From Fibrobacterota bacterium (GTDB taxonomy: Bacteria; Fibrobacterota; Fibrobacteria; UBA11236), in contig JAQBPN010000107.1 of assembly GCA_028287505.1 (NCBI GenBank), positions 1 through 64,000 on the forward strand: DNA of 64,000 nucleotides. Reading direction: 5' to 3'. Under the pieces are notes generated by a model. It was not told where the DNA came from. It saw only the letters and a list, made by a program, of their open reading frames with translations, and searched no databases. Shown here in pieces: positions 14,327 through 20,315 of the stretch (the stretch's first letter is position 1; every line of letters starts with the position of its first letter). The position numbers and the translations under genes are program-made.

Positions 14327-14505
14327 GCGTCCGCCGCCATTCCCCTAGGCTCCCAGAGGGACCGCCCTCCGCGGCCCCCATCAAAAGGCCCTCAACACCG
14401 CGGTGGCCGCCGACGGGCACAGGATCACTCCCTCACAACTTCCCCAAAATCTGGCCAAGCTTGCCATTTTTTCCACAAATACCTCAAATTATTTAGGCTT
14501 TAAGC

Positions 14506-14534
14506 TTGGCTTTCCAATAGAAACCAAGTATACT
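14506..14534 (+). promoter_or_regulatory. Predicted sigma70 promoter of vapBC
   Basis: TTGGCT at 14506-14511 and TATACT at 14529-14534 are separated by 17 bases and lie about 40 bases upstream of the antitoxin ATG. The -10 box is the left half of the 16-bp palindrome, so a protein bound there would block RNA polymerase. Confidence 0.55.
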
Positions 14535-14544
14535 TTAAAGTATA
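14529..14544. promoter_or_regulatory. Perfect 16-bp palindromic operator upstream of vapBC
   Basis: TATACTTTAAAGTATA is a perfect inverted repeat overlapping the -10 box, about 26 bases before the antitoxin ATG. Ribbon-helix-helix antitoxins typically bind such dyads and repress their own operon, so autoregulation is inferred. Confidence 0.6.
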
Positions 14545-14570
14545 AGTGCCTTTGCCACAAGGAGCTCTCT

Positions 14571-14801
14571 ATGTCCCAACTGACCATCTACCTCGATGAC
14601 GAGAGCATCAGAAAAATTGAAACCGCCGCCGCTCTTGAAAAAAGTTCCGTTTCCAAATGGGTCAAAAACAGGCTGATTCAATCATTGGAAAACCAGTGGC
14701 CGACAAATTATTTCAGCCTATTCGGCTCTCTGGCGGAAAACGATTTGCCGGCCGTTTCCAAATTGGATTTCTCTCAAGACGCACCCAGGGAATCTCTCTG
14801 A
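14571..14801 (+). CDS. VapB-type ribbon-helix-helix antitoxin
   Basis: 76 aa from ATG 14571, with AAGGAG six bases upstream. The N-terminus SQLTIYLDDESIRKIETAAA and the KSSVSKWVKNRLI helix form a ribbon-helix-helix (CopG/MetJ-like) DNA-binding unit. The C-terminal tail (about 45-76) would wrap the toxin. The stop TGA is directly followed by the toxin ATG. It should neutralise the PIN toxin and, by binding the palindrome at 14529-14544, repress the operon. Base composition is clearly more AT-rich than the receptor gene before it, which fits horizontal acquisition. Confidence 0.85.
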   Translation: MSQLTIYLDDESIRKIETAAALEKSSVSKWVKNRLIQSLENQWPTNYFSLFGSLAENDLPAVSKLDFSQDAPRESL

Positions 14802-15200
14802 ATGCACTTACTGGACACCAATATCTGCATCTACCTCCTGAAGGGAATGTTTCTGGCGTTGAAGATGCGACTGGAATCCCATTCGCCATCCACGATAGCC
14901 ATCCCCGCCATCGTCAAAGCTGAACTTTATTTCGGAGCGAACAAAAGCCAGAGTAAAGAGAAGACGTTAAAAGTTTTGAATGCTTTTTTAGCTCCTTTAC
15001 CGATTATTCCATTTGGCGATGAGGAGTCCATCTTTTATGGCCGTATTCGCGCCGATATGGAATTGGAAGGCCAACCCATTGGCCCGAATGATTTGCTGAT
15101 CGCCTCAACCGCGTTGGCCCGCGGAGCTGTTCTTGTCACCCATAACGTAAAAGAGTTCCAAAGAGTGAAGGGGTTGGTTTGGGAGGATTGGACCATCTAG
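14802..15200 (+). CDS. VapC-type PIN-domain ribonuclease toxin
   Basis: 132 aa, about normal for VapC. The metal-binding acidic residues of the PIN fold are present: Asp5 in LLDTN, Glu41 in VKAELYFGA, Asp97 in GPNDLLIAS, and the THNVKEF segment near the C-terminus. VapC toxins cleave specific RNAs, often initiator tRNA or the 23S sarcin-ricin loop; the target here is unknown. The gene begins on the base after the VapB stop and is followed by a hairpin terminator at 15291-15331. All catalytic positions look intact, so the module is probably active. Confidence 0.88.
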   Translation: MHLLDTNICIYLLKGMFLALKMRLESHSPSTIAIPAIVKAELYFGANKSQSKEKTLKVLNAFLAPLPIIPFGDEESIFYGRIRADMELEGQPIGPNDLLIASTALARGAVLVTHNVKEFQRVKGLVWEDWTI

Positions 15201-15290: not shown

Positions 15291-15331
15291 AAGACCCGGT
15301 TCTTCTTACGGAAAGCCGGTCTTCTTTTTTA
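15291..15331 (+). terminator. Hairpin terminator downstream of vapC (possibly bidirectional; perhaps the original tRNA-Pro terminator)
   Basis: The stem AAGACC(C)GG at 15291-15299 pairs with CCGGTCTT at 15317-15324 and is followed by a T run. An A run precedes it, so it can also work on the minus strand. It abuts the partial tRNA-Pro copy and shares the GACCCGGTT segment with the terminator beside the intact tRNA. This suggests it was the native tRNA terminator before the islet inserted. Confidence 0.6.
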
Positions 15332-15351
15332 GTTGGTCGGGATGGCGGGAG
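15332..15351 (-). repeat. Distal attachment-site-like copy of the tRNA-Pro 3' end
   Basis: The 20 bases AGTTGGTCGGGATGGCGGGA are identical to 20236-20255, which contains the 3' end, including CCA, of the tRNA-Pro gene. The two copies are in direct orientation and the sequence diverges immediately beyond 15351. A partial tRNA 3' end some 4.9 kb downstream of the intact gene is the usual trace left by site-specific integration at a tRNA. Confidence 0.65.
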
Positions 15352-15446
15352 TACGTACCCAAGTACGTAAATTTTTCAGCGTATCGATTCTCCAGTAGCC
15401 CCCTCCTCGCGAGCCCCCCAAAGCATATTGTTTTGTTCGGCTGAGT

Positions 15447-18400
15447 CTATTCGCCGGCGGCGGACGCTGGGCGACTGCCACTTTGCGCGCCCTGCCGGGC
15501 GCTACGTGAGGCAGCCACCTTCTGTCGCTTAAGTTTACGCATCATTTGCTGTGCCTTAAGCACGGGAGCATCGGTTACTCCAGCTGGTATCTCTACTTCG
15601 TCGGTCTCCTGTATGCCCACAAAGAAATGGTTGCTGTCATCAACCTGCCAGGCGGGAATAACGGTGAGCTTAGTTTTCAAAATAGCTCCATGGCGCAATA
15701 GATCTTTTGCACTAGGTCTTTGCGATCGAAAGATAGGATGGAGGAGGTATTTGCCTTGGCGTTTATAGGCATCGAAGAAAGCTTGCATTGGGCCGGGATT
15801 CGCCGAATCAAGCGTTTTTATCTGCGCCATGAATGTTGCATACCTTCCGTCTTCGCGGAGGCTTTCCGGATTGGAAGTAAGCACTACTCGGTAACGGCCT
15901 GGGACTTTCTTTGAAATACCCGTGATGATCGCAATCGAGATTTGCTCATCCTTGTCCTCCTTTCCGATGATGCGAAGCCATTCATTAAAAATGGCTATCC
16001 CGCTTTTCATCTCATCAAATATTAATCCCAACAGTGGAGGAGTATCCTCATTGGGAGAGCTGCCAAAACTAAGCCCCAGCCAATCCGCCTGGCTCCAGTT
16101 CGTGCCATTGATAACTGGCGAAATCACCATGTTACGATGCGCGTGGAGATCCGCTTCTCGCCTTGTCGCCGGCTGCTCCACCTTCATTGAAGTTTTCGCA
16201 GCCCCTTTCGGCGATGGGGATTCTTGTATTTCAGCGGGCGGAACGGTTAGGTACCATGCTTTCTGGCGAACCATAGGGAGTTCAATTACATCCGTAGACC
16301 CTAAAAAATCCTGAAGCGACCGCTTGGGACTGTCACCTAGGGTATCATAAATGGCCGTTCCAATATTTTCAAAATTGAATGCCCTGGCAAAGACCAGCTC
16401 ATTTTGGGCGAGGTCCTCCAGAAATGCCTTTATATCCTTGGATCGAACGACACGGGCAACGATTTCAGAAACGGAACCTATAACCCATGCATGGTGAGCC
16501 TCGCGCTCTTCAAGAGTGCCATATTTAAGGAACCCCGGATGTTGAATTGTAAAGTCAATTGGGCCGCCATCCTCAAGAGCGATGTAGTCTATTTTTTGCG
16601 ATCGGACATTTTTCGAAATTTGGACAGTAAAGGAGGCTCGTTGTGCGAAGACGTCCTTTTCAATGCTCGTCGCAAGGAAACCCTCGAGGGCTGACAAAAG
16701 TATTTCCCCGACCTCCATCGACACCGGGTCCGGTTCGCTCTGCACGGAAATATTGCAACCCAATAGAATTGTTGTCATGGTGACCGGAGTTGTCAAAAAA
16801 TATTCAGGATGACTGGGTATTTTTCGGCCTTCGGGGTGAAGTAACCATTTGCGAAAATGGTCTTCGATTGCACCTGTTGGATTGATCGCCTTGTAAGTTT
16901 CATCGGAAAGGATTCTGTCAACGTGACCAAGAGCAAATAAAGCGGCGTGCCAGGCCAGGGGCAGGCCCATTTTCTCAAGAAGGCCGGGTAGTTGCCCAAG
17001 TCGCAATAAATCCTCGCGGGAGGATTTTAAAATCAGGTGCCCCAGGACAAATTCTTGGTTCTCCCACTCCTCATTAAATCTGCGCCGCTGGTCTCTGTCA
17101 TGGATGACAGCTTTTGCAAGAAGTGCGGTTACCTGCATCCACTCAAGGGCATACCAAATACGGCCGAGATGCAGTTCGATCCAGACAAGTTTTAATGCAC
17201 TAAAGGCAAGGGGCCGGCGGAAGATGCCCTTTCTCCAGCGTTCTGCAGCGGAAATGTGGGCGGCGCCAAGCATATAGCTCCTTGCAATCCAGTACAGCCC
17301 TATTTTTTCGAACGACTCCGCACACGCCACAAGCGCGAGCTCGTACTCGTCTTTTGTCTCTTCCTTCCCAAGAGAGAATTGCGCCTTGCCTAAATATCGA
17401 ATCGCATCGAAATGCCTTTGTGCCCTTTGGGACGCGATCCCGCGTTTAAGGTATACTTCACCGGTCCCCGTTTCCTTGTCTCTTTCGCCCATTATATCTG
17501 CAACTAGGTTGAGTACCTCTTCGTATTCGTCGGTGCTTTCCTGTTGCTCCCCAAAGACTTCAAACATTTCGGCAATTGTTTCAAAGGGAAACTCCACCAA
17601 TCCTCGGCAATTTTCGAAAATTTCTTTGTAGCGACCCAAGTAGGTGGAGAATTCCACCTCGGGATAAGTTACTTGATCCATATGAAGCAAAATGGATTGA
17701 GCCCACAAGGAAGCATTGGGCCGATCGGGATACCCACAATGCCGTTCTATTTCCGCGCGGACGTTGCTTATATGCACTTCTTTTACGGCTGCCTCTTGGG
17801 TCACGAGTCCTTTCAGGCCGGCCACATGCAGGGCACACCAGGTATTAAAAAGGAGCTCTATGTCATCTATGGACATGCTACCGGTGGCTAATTGATAAAT
17901 CGGATCAAAAAGGTCCCGCAAGCCCTCTCCATCATCATGCCAATAAAAAGCAGTTCGTGCGCGTTGGTATAACACCCGAAGCTGTTGTTGTCGTTCCCCA
18001 TACTTCTTTGCAAATCTTTCTGCCCTCGAAAAGCGGCCTTCTACTTCATGCCTGGGGTATTCGAGACCGCGGGAGAGAATCGCCGCTTGCAGCGCATCTT
18101 CTATTTTCTGGTAGGGAACGCCGTTATAATAGGTCTCATCGTCCAGATGGGCTTCTATCTCTTCAAGGTCGGAGCGCTTTTCGGCATCATTTGGTCCTAC
18201 CTTTTCAATTGCATTCTGGTTCAAACCTTTTAGTCCCAGCGTCTCAATAGCCAAGCCGAGGCGCTTGTTGTCGTAGACTTTTTCCTCGATCCAATTACGA
18301 TCACAAATCCAAAGGTCCACTCCATCGCTTTTTTGAAGCGTGTCTTTGAGTTCCGCTTGTTCCCTGCTGCTCACTGCCTGGTTGGTCATGAAATAAATCC

Positions 18401-18845
18401 GAGCATAGTTTCGATTGGTACCCTGGATTTTCTTGATGTCGTCCTTGCATTTGGGCTTCCAGTCCTTTTTTGCACTGAAGGCAAATGCCCACCGTTCACC
18501 GGCAGAAGATGCCTCTGCGTCGTACCAATTCTCACTGACCGATTCCGCTACCGGATAGGTTTCTGTATCCACCTTGCCGTCGCCTCCGCCGGTAGGCCCG
18601 GTTTGCGGGATTAGGTTTCGGCAAATTTCCTTTTCGGCGAGCTTGCGGCAAAATCGCTCGAACTCGTATTCCTTCTTTTGGCGGGTCAGATTCTCAAGGT
18701 GATACCCGAAAACGTCTCTGGGGAGCACGGCTTCGGGCGACCATGTAGTGTCTGAAAAAAGGTGCGGGCGGCGGGCGCGCATATACTCGGACGGGAGCAA
18801 TTGCGCGCCGCTCCCGATCTCCTGTTGGTCATTTTCCTGGGTCAT
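15447..18845 (-). CDS. 1132-aa protein with N-terminal restriction-endonuclease-like (Mrr-type) domain and long helical-repeat body; candidate defence protein
   Basis: Start ATG 18845 with GAGGAAG upstream. Residues about 45-215 look like a PD-(D/E)xK nuclease: a leading YEFERFCRKLAEKEI helix, GPTGGGDGKVDTETYPV with the likely metal-binding Asp89, and the core strand AFAFSAKKDW supplying Ser124-x-Lys126. Then come RIYFMTNQAVSSREQAEL and a DRNWIEEKV segment, as in Mrr-type domains fused to defence proteins. Residues about 225-700 are helix-rich and TPR-like. No Walker A motif is present, so it is not a STAND NTPase. A C-terminal domain (about 915-1090, PLLGLIFDEMKSGIAIFNEW) is not recognisable to me. 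It lies in the tRNA-Pro islet next to two small genes. A role in anti-phage defence is inferred from architecture and location only. Confidence 0.7.
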   Translation of the reverse strand: MTQENDQQEIGSGAQLLPSEYMRARRPHLFSDTTWSPEAVLPRDVFGYHLENLTRQKKEYEFERFCRKLAEKEICRNLIPQTGPTGGGDGKVDTETYPVAESVSENWYDAEASSAGERWAFAFSAKKDWKPKCKDDIKKIQGTNRNYARIYFMTNQAVSSREQAELKDTLQKSDGVDLWICDRNWIEEKVYDNKRLGLAIETLGLKGLNQNAIEKVGPNDAEKRSDLEEIEAHLDDETYYNGVPYQKIEDALQAAILSRGLEYPRHEVEGRFSRAERFAKKYGERQQQLRVLYQRARTAFYWHDDGEGLRDLFDPIYQLATGSMSIDDIELLFNTWCALHVAGLKGLVTQEAAVKEVHISNVRAEIERHCGYPDRPNASLWAQSILLHMDQVTYPEVEFSTYLGRYKEIFENCRGLVEFPFETIAEMFEVFGEQQESTDEYEEVLNLVADIMGERDKETGTGEVYLKRGIASQRAQRHFDAIRYLGKAQFSLGKEETKDEYELALVACAESFEKIGLYWIARSYMLGAAHISAAERWRKGIFRRPLAFSALKLVWIELHLGRIWYALEWMQVTALLAKAVIHDRDQRRRFNEEWENQEFVLGHLILKSSREDLLRLGQLPGLLEKMGLPLAWHAALFALGHVDRILSDETYKAINPTGAIEDHFRKWLLHPEGRKIPSHPEYFLTTPVTMTTILLGCNISVQSEPDPVSMEVGEILLSALEGFLATSIEKDVFAQRASFTVQISKNVRSQKIDYIALEDGGPIDFTIQHPGFLKYGTLEEREAHHAWVIGSVSEIVARVVRSKDIKAFLEDLAQNELVFARAFNFENIGTAIYDTLGDSPKRSLQDFLGSTDVIELPMVRQKAWYLTVPPAEIQESPSPKGAAKTSMKVEQPATRREADLHAHRNMVISPVINGTNWSQADWLGLSFGSSPNEDTPPLLGLIFDEMKSGIAIFNEWLRIIGKEDKDEQISIAIITGISKKVPGRYRVVLTSNPESLREDGRYATFMAQIKTLDSANPGPMQAFFDAYKRQGKYLLHPIFRSQRPSAKDLLRHGAILKTKLTVIPAWQVDDSNHFFVGIQETDEVEIPAGVTDAPVLKAQQMMRKLKRQKVAASRSARQGAQSGSRPASAAGE

Positions 18846-18942
18846 CTTTTAGCTTCCTCGCACATAAATATAGCCGGACGGGAAGCTTTGGAGCAAACTC
18901 AAGAAGAGCAGCTATCGGCCATTTCTCGATTGCGTTGGCGAC

Positions 18943-19545
18943 CTATTCGTCGGACAATGCTGAAGCCAAAACTTTCATGCAGAAAGACTGTGCAAAGCGC
19001 GCATGGTCTTCGTCCTGGCAATACATCTTGGCTGCGCGCAATCCAATGGGCTCGAACTTAAGCCGCTCGACAAGGTTTAGCATCTTCCACTCGTTAAAAT
19101 TGTCGTAGTTAATTTTATCGAAGTCCCGTCCGTTGTAAACCAACAACATGGCAGGAACCGCTTCGTCGTTTCCGTATTTATCCGTGCTTGGGGAATAAGC
19201 GAGGATCTTAACGACCGAAAACGAATCCGGCAGGTTTTCCTTGAGAAATTTTCCAAGGGCCAATACTCCACTCGCCATTGTATGGATCCATCCCGCTTCG
19301 TCCCATACAGCCTTTCGGTAAAATTTCACCTTTAAGGTGTCTTTTGACCCCTCCGACGCGAACAGCATGTCGGTCGCTTCCGCAATGGACCGGGCTTGAG
19401 GCGCATCTACATTGTTTGCCTGCACACCACTCTTCACATTGCTGTCTTCCTGGGAAAAAAGGATCCCTAGCACAAGTAAGGCGATAAATCCCATTCCGAG
19501 TAGAACAAACTTTGTAAGTGCTGGATTACTGGACGGCCCCGGCAT
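18943..19545 (-). CDS. Membrane-anchored protein of unknown function (islet)
   Basis: 200 aa, start ATG 19545 with AAAGGG six bases upstream. One N-terminal transmembrane segment (about 11-31, KFVLLGMGFIALLVLGILF) is followed by a mixed alpha/beta domain of about 150 residues, probably outside the cytoplasm. Two cysteines near the C-terminus (YCQDEDHARFAQSFC) could form a disulfide or bind metal. No family is recognised. It is co-directional with the large nuclease-domain gene, 97 bases upstream of it, so the two may be cotranscribed. A 13-base dyad lies about 30 bases before its start. Confidence 0.65.
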   Translation of the reverse strand: MPGPSSNPALTKFVLLGMGFIALLVLGILFSQEDSNVKSGVQANNVDAPQARSIAEATDMLFASEGSKDTLKVKFYRKAVWDEAGWIHTMASGVLALGKFLKENLPDSFSVVKILAYSPSTDKYGNDEAVPAMLLVYNGRDFDKINYDNFNEWKMLNLVERLKFEPIGLRAAKMYCQDEDHARFAQSFCMKVLASALSDE

Positions 19546-19574
19546 ATTTTGCCCTTTCGATCTGCAACCCGATA

Positions 19575-19587
19575 CTTTAGACTAAAG
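19575..19587. promoter_or_regulatory. Possible operator dyad upstream of the islet genes
   Basis: CTTTAGACTAAAG is a perfect 6-bp dyad around a single central base. It sits between the divergent islet genes, 30 bases upstream of the 200-aa membrane protein. A DNA-binding role is only suggested by symmetry and position; the core promoter elements nearby are weak. Confidence 0.3.
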
Positions 19588-19726
19588 GATAATAAGCTAG
19601 GCGCTTGCATTGTATGACTTCATCGCTATAAAGAAGAATTTGCGGAGGTTTTCGATAGCTATATCCTCTTCGCCCTTTGCGGCCGCCGTCCGAACTATAT
19701 TTTGTAATTGAACTCAGGAGGTATAG

Positions 19727-20125
19727 TTGAGAATAGATCATGACCTGATAAAGCTGTTGTTGAATGCCTTTGAAGCACTTCCGGAAACCTTCGTCACCTT
19801 GGAATTGGTGGCTAAGCAAGCACGGAGAGATATTGAAGATGAAGTGGTTTTACACCAATTCCAAATGATGCAAGATGCGGGTTACATTCTTCGCCATGAC
19901 GGGAAGAACGGCGTCGGGATTGTTATTGGCTCCGATGGACATAAAGCGCTGAATACGGGGATCCCATTTCGACTTACTGCACATGGTCACGAATTCCTCG
20001 CGAGCATTAATAATCCTGAAATATGGACCAAAGCGAAGGCGAAATTCGGTACCTTGGGAATGGAAGCGATGAAGGAAGGCGTCAAAGGGCTTACTAAAAC
20101 TCTTGTTCAAAGCATCCTTTCCTGA
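19727..20125 (+). CDS. DUF2513-like protein (islet)
   Basis: 132 aa from a TTG at 19727, supported by AGGAGG five bases upstream. The N-terminus RIDHDLIKLLLNAFE and the VVLHQFQMMQDAGYI and PFRLTAHGHEFLASINN segments match the DUF2513 pattern (MxxDxDLIRxILxxIE ... LTxxGHEFL). DUF2513 proteins are small winged-helix-like proteins common on prophages and mobile islands; their function is unknown. It is divergent from the other two islet genes and ends about 110 bases before the tRNA-Pro end. It could regulate the islet, but that is conjecture. Confidence 0.7.
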   Translation: MRIDHDLIKLLLNAFEALPETFVTLELVAKQARRDIEDEVVLHQFQMMQDAGYILRHDGKNGVGIVIGSDGHKALNTGIPFRLTAHGHEFLASINNPEIWTKAKAKFGTLGMEAMKEGVKGLTKTLVQSILS

Positions 20126-20195
20126 GCGACTTTAGAGATGAAACAAAAAGGCCCGGCCCCCTCGCGGAAAACCAGGCCTCTTCCAAAACCCCAGG

Positions 20196-20232
20196 CAAAA
20201 AATAAGGGGACCCGGTTTGCACCAGGCCCCCT
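20196..20232 (-). terminator. Rho-independent terminator of tRNA-Pro
   Basis: On the minus strand, immediately after the tRNA, AGGGGGCCTGGT pairs with ACCGGGTCCCCT (12 bp with two G-T pairs) around a GCAA tetraloop, followed by TTATTTTTTG. It lies inside the proposed islet boundary, so it may have been supplied by the islet. Confidence 0.7.
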
Positions 20233-20235
20233 CTA

Positions 20236-20255
20236 AGTTGGTCGGGATGGCGGGA
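20236..20255 (-). repeat. Proximal attachment-site-like repeat within tRNA-Pro
   Basis: These 20 bases are identical to 15332-15351. They cover the CCA tail, the discriminator, the 3' acceptor strand and the start of the T arm of the tRNA, plus three bases beyond the gene. Confidence 0.65.
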
Positions 20256-20315
20256 TTCGAACCCACGACCACCTGAACCCCATTCAGGTACTCTACCAGA
20301 CTGAGCCACATCCCG
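20239..20315 (-). tRNA. tRNA-Pro (anticodon GGG)
   Basis: 77 bases folding as a full cloverleaf. The acceptor stem CGGGATG pairs with CATCCCG, the D arm is GGCTCAGTCTGGTAGAG, and the anticodon stem CCTGA/TCAGG encloses ATGGGGT. The T arm is GTGGG TTCGAAT CCCGC, and CCA is encoded. Anticodon GGG reads proline codons CCC and CCT. The 3' end is the apparent integration site of the islet. Confidence 0.95.

Follow-up and report, generated by a model that had tools for sequence, protein, structure and literature searches.

A widespread protein family combining a PD-(D/E)XK-type nuclease, a TPR-like solenoid and a bSEFIR-type C-terminal domain: a probable single-gene antiphage sensor-nuclease without an NTPase

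The window analysed here (the whole stretch of 64,000 nucleotides from contig JAQBPN010000107.1 of the Fibrobacterota assembly GCA_028287505.1) contains an ORF at 15447–18845 (− strand) that starts with ATG, is not interrupted and encodes a protein of 1132 amino acids, with no further copy in its own genome. The ORF, its full-length homologues and an AlphaFold model together describe a protein composed of a nuclease domain, a TPR-like solenoid and a bSEFIR-type C-terminal domain. Upstream on the same strand lies a gene whose 200-aa product is predicted to have one hydrophobic segment, at the N-terminus (18943–19545, −), and a DUF2513 protein is encoded in the same insertion at 19727–20125 (+; Pfam PF10711, 2.9e-12). 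These three genes are enclosed by two exact 20-bp direct repeats of the 3´ end of a tRNA-Pro (ggg) gene (20239–20315, −; ARAGORN), the insertion target. The right boundary is the 3´ end of the tRNA gene itself (20236–20255), the left one its duplication (15331–15350), and the similarity extends to about 30 nt at 90%; both repeats are putative attachment sites. The insertion (15331–20255) comprises 4.9 kb and does not carry an integrase of its own.

The GC content of the stretch with the 1132-aa gene is about 0.49–0.52, in comparison with 0.60–0.66 in the flanks. The side formed by PFK, NrdR and tRNA-Met is syntenic in four congeneric genomes, and the island genes were not found in the sequence examined of these four. 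Because of the GC contrast, the tRNA-Pro 3´-end repeats and the absence from congeneric genomes, the gene is placed in variable, inserted DNA. The full-length gene is present in one of the six genomes of the genus and in one of the 168 of the phylum. A search of the 4.9-kb insertion for other known defence genes found none. Just beyond it, at 14403–15200, lies a pair composed of an RHH antitoxin-like protein and a VapC toxin of the tRNA-fMet endonuclease type (NCBIfam 1.6e-44); this VapBC pair was rejected as part of the same unit, being outside the tRNA-Pro repeats. Elsewhere in the genome (L112; G000 C112, 43500–62500), a stretch of about 16 kb extends between a tRNA-Pro (cgg) gene and a copy of its 3´ end. 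It opens with a tyrosine integrase adjoining the tRNA gene (L112 1498–2763), contains four large ORFs (947, 244, 329 and 557 aa) with no Pfam match above the cut-off, and is probably a second element with the same attachment core.

Direct searches of the 1132-aa protein against Pfam, NCBIfam, PADLOC, PHROGs and PDB sequences gave no meaningful match, and its architecture was analysed by structure prediction. The full-length AlphaFold model, built with 79 homologues in the alignment, reached a pLDDT of 86.5 and a pTM of 0.85. A PD-(D/E)XK-type nuclease domain occupies residues 43–205 (18231–18719, −), as indicated by AlphaFold, Foldseek and profile comparison. It is followed by a TPR-like α-solenoid at residues 218–675 (16821–18194, −), where about 22 helices fill about 460 residues, 40% of the protein; the estimate of some 450 residues of TPR-like helices, made earlier from the sequence alone, was accurate. 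By Foldseek the full-length model matches TPR proteins, including LGN, with probabilities up to 1.00. Only the TPR part was matched in this search, hence the N-terminal domain was modelled separately, and in a BFVD search with the full model the matches were confined to repeat proteins, apart from a few weak ones to endonucleases. The solenoid leads into an unplaced α/β domain at residues 688–850 (16296–16784, −), with conserved G696, E721, T726 and R821, and then into a probably disordered linker at residues about 860–900 (16146–16268, −; pLDDT below 50 at 869–899). The C-terminal α/β domain, of bSEFIR type by BLASTP and hhalign, covers residues about 903–1070 (15636–16139, −). A Walker A motif was found in none of the 89 full-length family members, and the window protein has no Pfam or PADLOC match to a STAND NTPase, in agreement with the original remark that no P-loop NTPase stands between the nuclease and the repeats.

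The N-terminal region modelled alone (residues 14–215) reached a pLDDT of 84.4 and a pTM of 0.77. Its best PDB matches by Foldseek were a chain of Avs4 (8dgf; probability 1.00, TM by query 0.49) and the restriction enzymes EcoT38I and AspBHI (0.97 each), with FokI and BamHI further down among the first 12 matches. The scores are modest (best E 2.1e-3, TM by query 0.38–0.49), but three nucleases at the top are not a chance pattern. The entry 8dgf is the Avs4–portal structure, and length and domain type suggest that the aligned part is the N-terminal nuclease of Avs4. By Foldseek the model has a restriction-endonuclease-like fold, at modest E-values. The sequence-only reading, which had proposed a nuclease-like N-terminus and had staked it on a nuclease-fold match for this region, is borne out on both counts.

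The three motifs picked out by that reading, GGGDGKVD (86–93), AFSAKKDW (122–129) and DRNWIEEKV (182–190), are located where it had placed them and are conserved beyond chance. The first lies within GGGDGKVDTE (residues 86–95; 18561–18590, −), which provides the metal-binding candidates Asp89 and Asp93; the second overlaps SAKKDWKPK (residues 124–132; 18450–18476, −). E63, G88, D89, D93 and K132 are invariant in 12 family members, picked without motif selection, and in seven distant relatives. In nine plasmid homologues, found by tblastn and likewise without motif selection, the invariant positions are G86–G88, D89, K91, D93, S124, K126, W129, K132, D136, D182 and W185. Furthermore, 27 of the 79 motif-selected full-length homologues miss the retrieval pattern near GGGD, yet have GGGDxKxD. 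Asp89 and Lys126 had been put forward as catalytic residues: the former stands, while the latter is not kept, since the window protein has Lys at position 126, but the E. coli homologue has R, Ponticaulis has Q and distant relatives have E, N, Q or A. Lys132 and Asp93 are better candidates. The second motif does not have its canonical (D/E)xK form, the conserved lysine standing elsewhere, and alignment of these positions suggests a catalytic set of E63, D89/D93 and K132, the lysine being shifted into the following helix.

At the profile level, the relationship to the Mrr_cat family (PF04471) appears to pass mainly through the distant relatives. The family N-terminus matches Mrr_cat weakly when compared directly (15%, P 0.0017). 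The distant relatives match the family with 99.7% and Mrr_cat with a probability of 62.6% (E 7e-5, 115 columns); in a control with 19 unrelated clusters no value exceeded 0.2%. The window protein has no Mrr_cat match over the Pfam cut-off, and no Pfam match to Mrr_cat at E ≤ 10 was found among 83 N-terminal domains. SMEK and Cap4 were rejected as N-terminal relatives, with hhalign values of 0.3% and 0.1%, respectively, within the control range. Another uncharacterised family, with proteins of about 1000 aa from Mycobacterium and Agrobacterium (L015, L017, L018 and L176), has a related N-terminal nuclease domain (AGGDxGxD...CTLEK) on a different body, and its L015 member adjoins Shedu and a restriction endonuclease. 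In an acidobacterial tandem (L021; 6726–9917 and 9965–13330), a distant N-terminal-domain relative of 1063 aa is encoded immediately ahead of a full-length family member.

The C-terminal domain, which the earlier reading could not place, is the one that SEFIR/TIR proteins from the bSEFIR family carry at their own C-terminus. By BLASTP it matches (E 3e-14) a protein from another genome of the same phylum (G064), in which the same domain stands behind a SEFIR/TIR domain (L002) and whose gene adjoins a type I R-M specificity gene. A second SEFIR/TIR protein with this domain (L178) is encoded on a Lactiplantibacillus plasmid, adjoining an AbiEii-like gene. The C-termini of the family align with those of L002 and L178 at 99.8% (hhalign; E 2e-27, 175 columns), and both of these proteins match PADLOC bSEFIR over nearly the full extent of that model (2e-56 and 6e-57). 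The window protein itself has no direct PADLOC bSEFIR match, no PADLOC family at E ≤ 1 and no Pfam match to SEFIR or TIR. It possesses the bSEFIR C-terminal domain, with a nuclease instead of the N-terminal SEFIR/TIR effector. One C-terminal domain is therefore joined to different effectors, SEFIR/TIR or nuclease. bSEFIR has hardly any other part besides its effector and this C-terminal domain, and the domain would therefore be a natural candidate for sensing or assembly. SEFIR systems have been described to act by depleting NAD+, the phenotype being abortive infection (PMC12322248).

The 1132-aa protein belongs to a widespread uncharacterised family. By tblastn, 12 plasmid records showed homologues with at least 80% coverage and 24–36% identity, in Nostoc, Agrobacterium, Sphingobium, Cohnella, Pseudosulfitobacter, Cupriavidus, Burkholderia, Polymorphobacter and Pantoea. 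A scan of GTDB species genomes with the family alignment gave 199 family loci, 80 of which were kept, and the same alignment found five relatives in viral contigs, where a scan with the single window sequence had found none. A family tree of 76 rows, one of them an archaeal MAG, covers 16 named phyla and places the window protein on a long branch. The tree clusters by phylum, with 21 phylum changes (minimum 15, shuffled 40.8), so that no strong case can be made for rampant transfer between phyla. A homologue is also present in 24 of 5426 complete E. coli genomes. It is a protein of 1083 aa from a lambdoid prophage (L174 and L175, 11524–14775 in each; accession WP_135805009.1 for L174, further accession WP_039268304.1). 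Its gene directly follows the remnant of an integrase and the gene for tail-fibre assembly, and the protein shares 27% identity with the window protein over 1094 aligned columns, its D81, D85 and K125 corresponding to window D89, D93 and K132. One Bradyrhizobium copy (L014, 5920–7193) is split into short ORFs and is likely a pseudogene, with genes for an S8 peptidase, SAVED and Fic nearby. In the literature, of which coverage was incomplete, no sign of a name for the family was found, and searches for bSEFIR and for four homologue accessions gave no result. The DefensePredictor paper (PMC13092281) reports the validation of 13 E. coli systems that contain PD-(D/E)XK domains, and TPR is mentioned there; these systems could include this family.

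Defence genes, plasmids and prophages form the surroundings of the homologues; conserved metabolic operons, which would have spoken against a defence role, do not. Genes within two positions of the family gene, taken as two sets of 138 and 129 neighbours, match 253 and 228 PADLOC families (E ≤ 1e-10), against one family for 110 genes elsewhere in the window's genome; the contrast is large, for a tally of families rather than genes and a control from one genome of another lineage, not host-matched. The neighbouring defence families include Hachiman, PD-Lambda-4, PD-T7-5, AbiE, Mokosh, SIR2, HerA (SIR2-HerA) and AriAB, together with R-M systems of type I, III and IIG. Integrase-like genes stand beside the family gene in 10 of 97 loci. 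The context is mobile, as seen in the plasmids, the E. coli lambdoid prophages and the tRNA-Pro insertion of the window. No recurrent partner gene was found in the 97 loci and an obligatory partner was rejected on this basis, so the protein probably acts alone. The 200-aa and DUF2513 neighbours were also rejected as obligatory partners, having no relatives at other family loci. A pair formed by an ATP-binding protein and an S8 peptidase recurs at L011, L014 and L018, beside family members or N-terminal relatives, and may be a defence pair.

The computed layout, nuclease fold, conserved acids and lysine, missing P-loop, exchanged effector and mobile, defence-rich context are best accommodated by reading the 1132-aa protein as a sensor-nuclease for antiphage defence, encoded by a single gene and lacking an NTPase; we consider this probable. 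The simpler sensor-nuclease design suggested by the sequence-only reading is supported, the antiphage activity itself being a matter of inference. The nuclease would be kept inactive by the bSEFIR-type C-terminal domain and the TPR-like solenoid. The trigger would be a component of the phage, in all likelihood a protein; its binding to the solenoid, to the C-terminal domain or to both would alter the assembly state and so switch on the nuclease. The active enzyme would then cut DNA, that of the phage and possibly that of the host too; cleavage of host DNA would lead to abortive infection, the alternative outcome being phage clearance through direct defence.

A modification-dependent, type IV-like restriction enzyme would present a similar gene. 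Its nuclease would be constitutively competent, with the C-terminal or solenoid part reading modified DNA in place of a protein trigger. Such an enzyme would fit the single-gene layout with no methyltransferase partner, and EcoT38I is a restriction enzyme and AspBHI, the third Foldseek match, a modification-dependent one. We nevertheless regard it as unlikely, considering that 40% of the protein is a TPR-like body, typical of protein–protein recognition, and that its C-terminal domain is common to SEFIR/TIR proteins, which are known for depleting NAD+ and not for reading DNA. Another explanation is a nuclease directed at plasmids or rival prophages or serving plasmid maintenance, instead of acting on virulent phages. 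ParA/ParB genes adjoin the family gene in five of the 97 loci, many homologues reside on plasmids and one class in lambdoid prophages. However, partition genes are absent at most loci, antiphage systems dominate the neighbours, and cargo behind a prophage tail-fibre assembly gene, the type of site seen in E. coli, is often superinfection defence, which leaves competition between mobile elements a rather improbable main role.

The modest Foldseek scores and the non-standard second motif could also be read as signs of a vestigial nuclease fold in a DNA-repair or regulatory protein with no defence role. We find this very improbable, as E63, D89, D93 and K132 are invariant across very distant relatives, and the patchy distribution within the genus and the mobile context are ill-suited to a housekeeping function.

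Beyond the sensor-nuclease reading of the family itself, we tentatively raise a broader possibility. The bSEFIR-type C-terminal domain might be a general infection sensor to which evolution has attached two or more killing modules: the SEFIR/TIR NADase in one case, a nuclease on a TPR scaffold in another. Proteins built in this way might form a class of single-protein pattern-recognition immunity that works without an NTPase. If so, this class would span 16 phyla as well as E. coli prophages.

Among the known systems, Mrr_cat (PF04471) resembles the N-terminal domain in the order of secondary structure, the FE helix and the GGD.xxD acidic motif. It differs in that the lysine position of QxK is lost in the family, the invariant Lys132 being eight residues further on, in the next helix. 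The Aga REase-TIR of short prokaryotic Argonaute systems is linked only through one distant N-terminal relative (L003), which matches its REase part in PADLOC (E 1e-4); no Argonaute partner is seen.

Avs and other STAND proteins are the best-known large single-protein sensors, in which the NTPase couples recognition to assembly. Avs4 (Mrr-like nuclease, STAND NTPase and TPR-like sensor) and the family are both single polypeptides with an N-terminal nuclease of the same fold and a long helical repeat body. However, the family lacks the STAND NTPase and its Walker A motif, has an extra α/β domain and the bSEFIR-type C-terminal domain, and carries its repeats in the middle of the protein, with the effector retained and the bSEFIR-type domain at the C-terminus; the window protein also matches no PADLOC Avs model at the sequence level. 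Because the NTPase was looked for and is absent, this is not an Avs protein. A widespread nuclease–repeat family of this kind poses the question of how a sensor can switch without nucleotide hydrolysis, and its tail offers a starting point for finding out what bSEFIR detects; with the homologue from E. coli prophages, both questions can be addressed in a laboratory strain. In comparison with bSEFIR (SEFIR NADase and C-terminal domain), the family has a nuclease instead of SEFIR/TIR as effector, and a 460-residue solenoid and an α/β domain are inserted, while the C-terminal domain, linked through L002 and L178, is the same.
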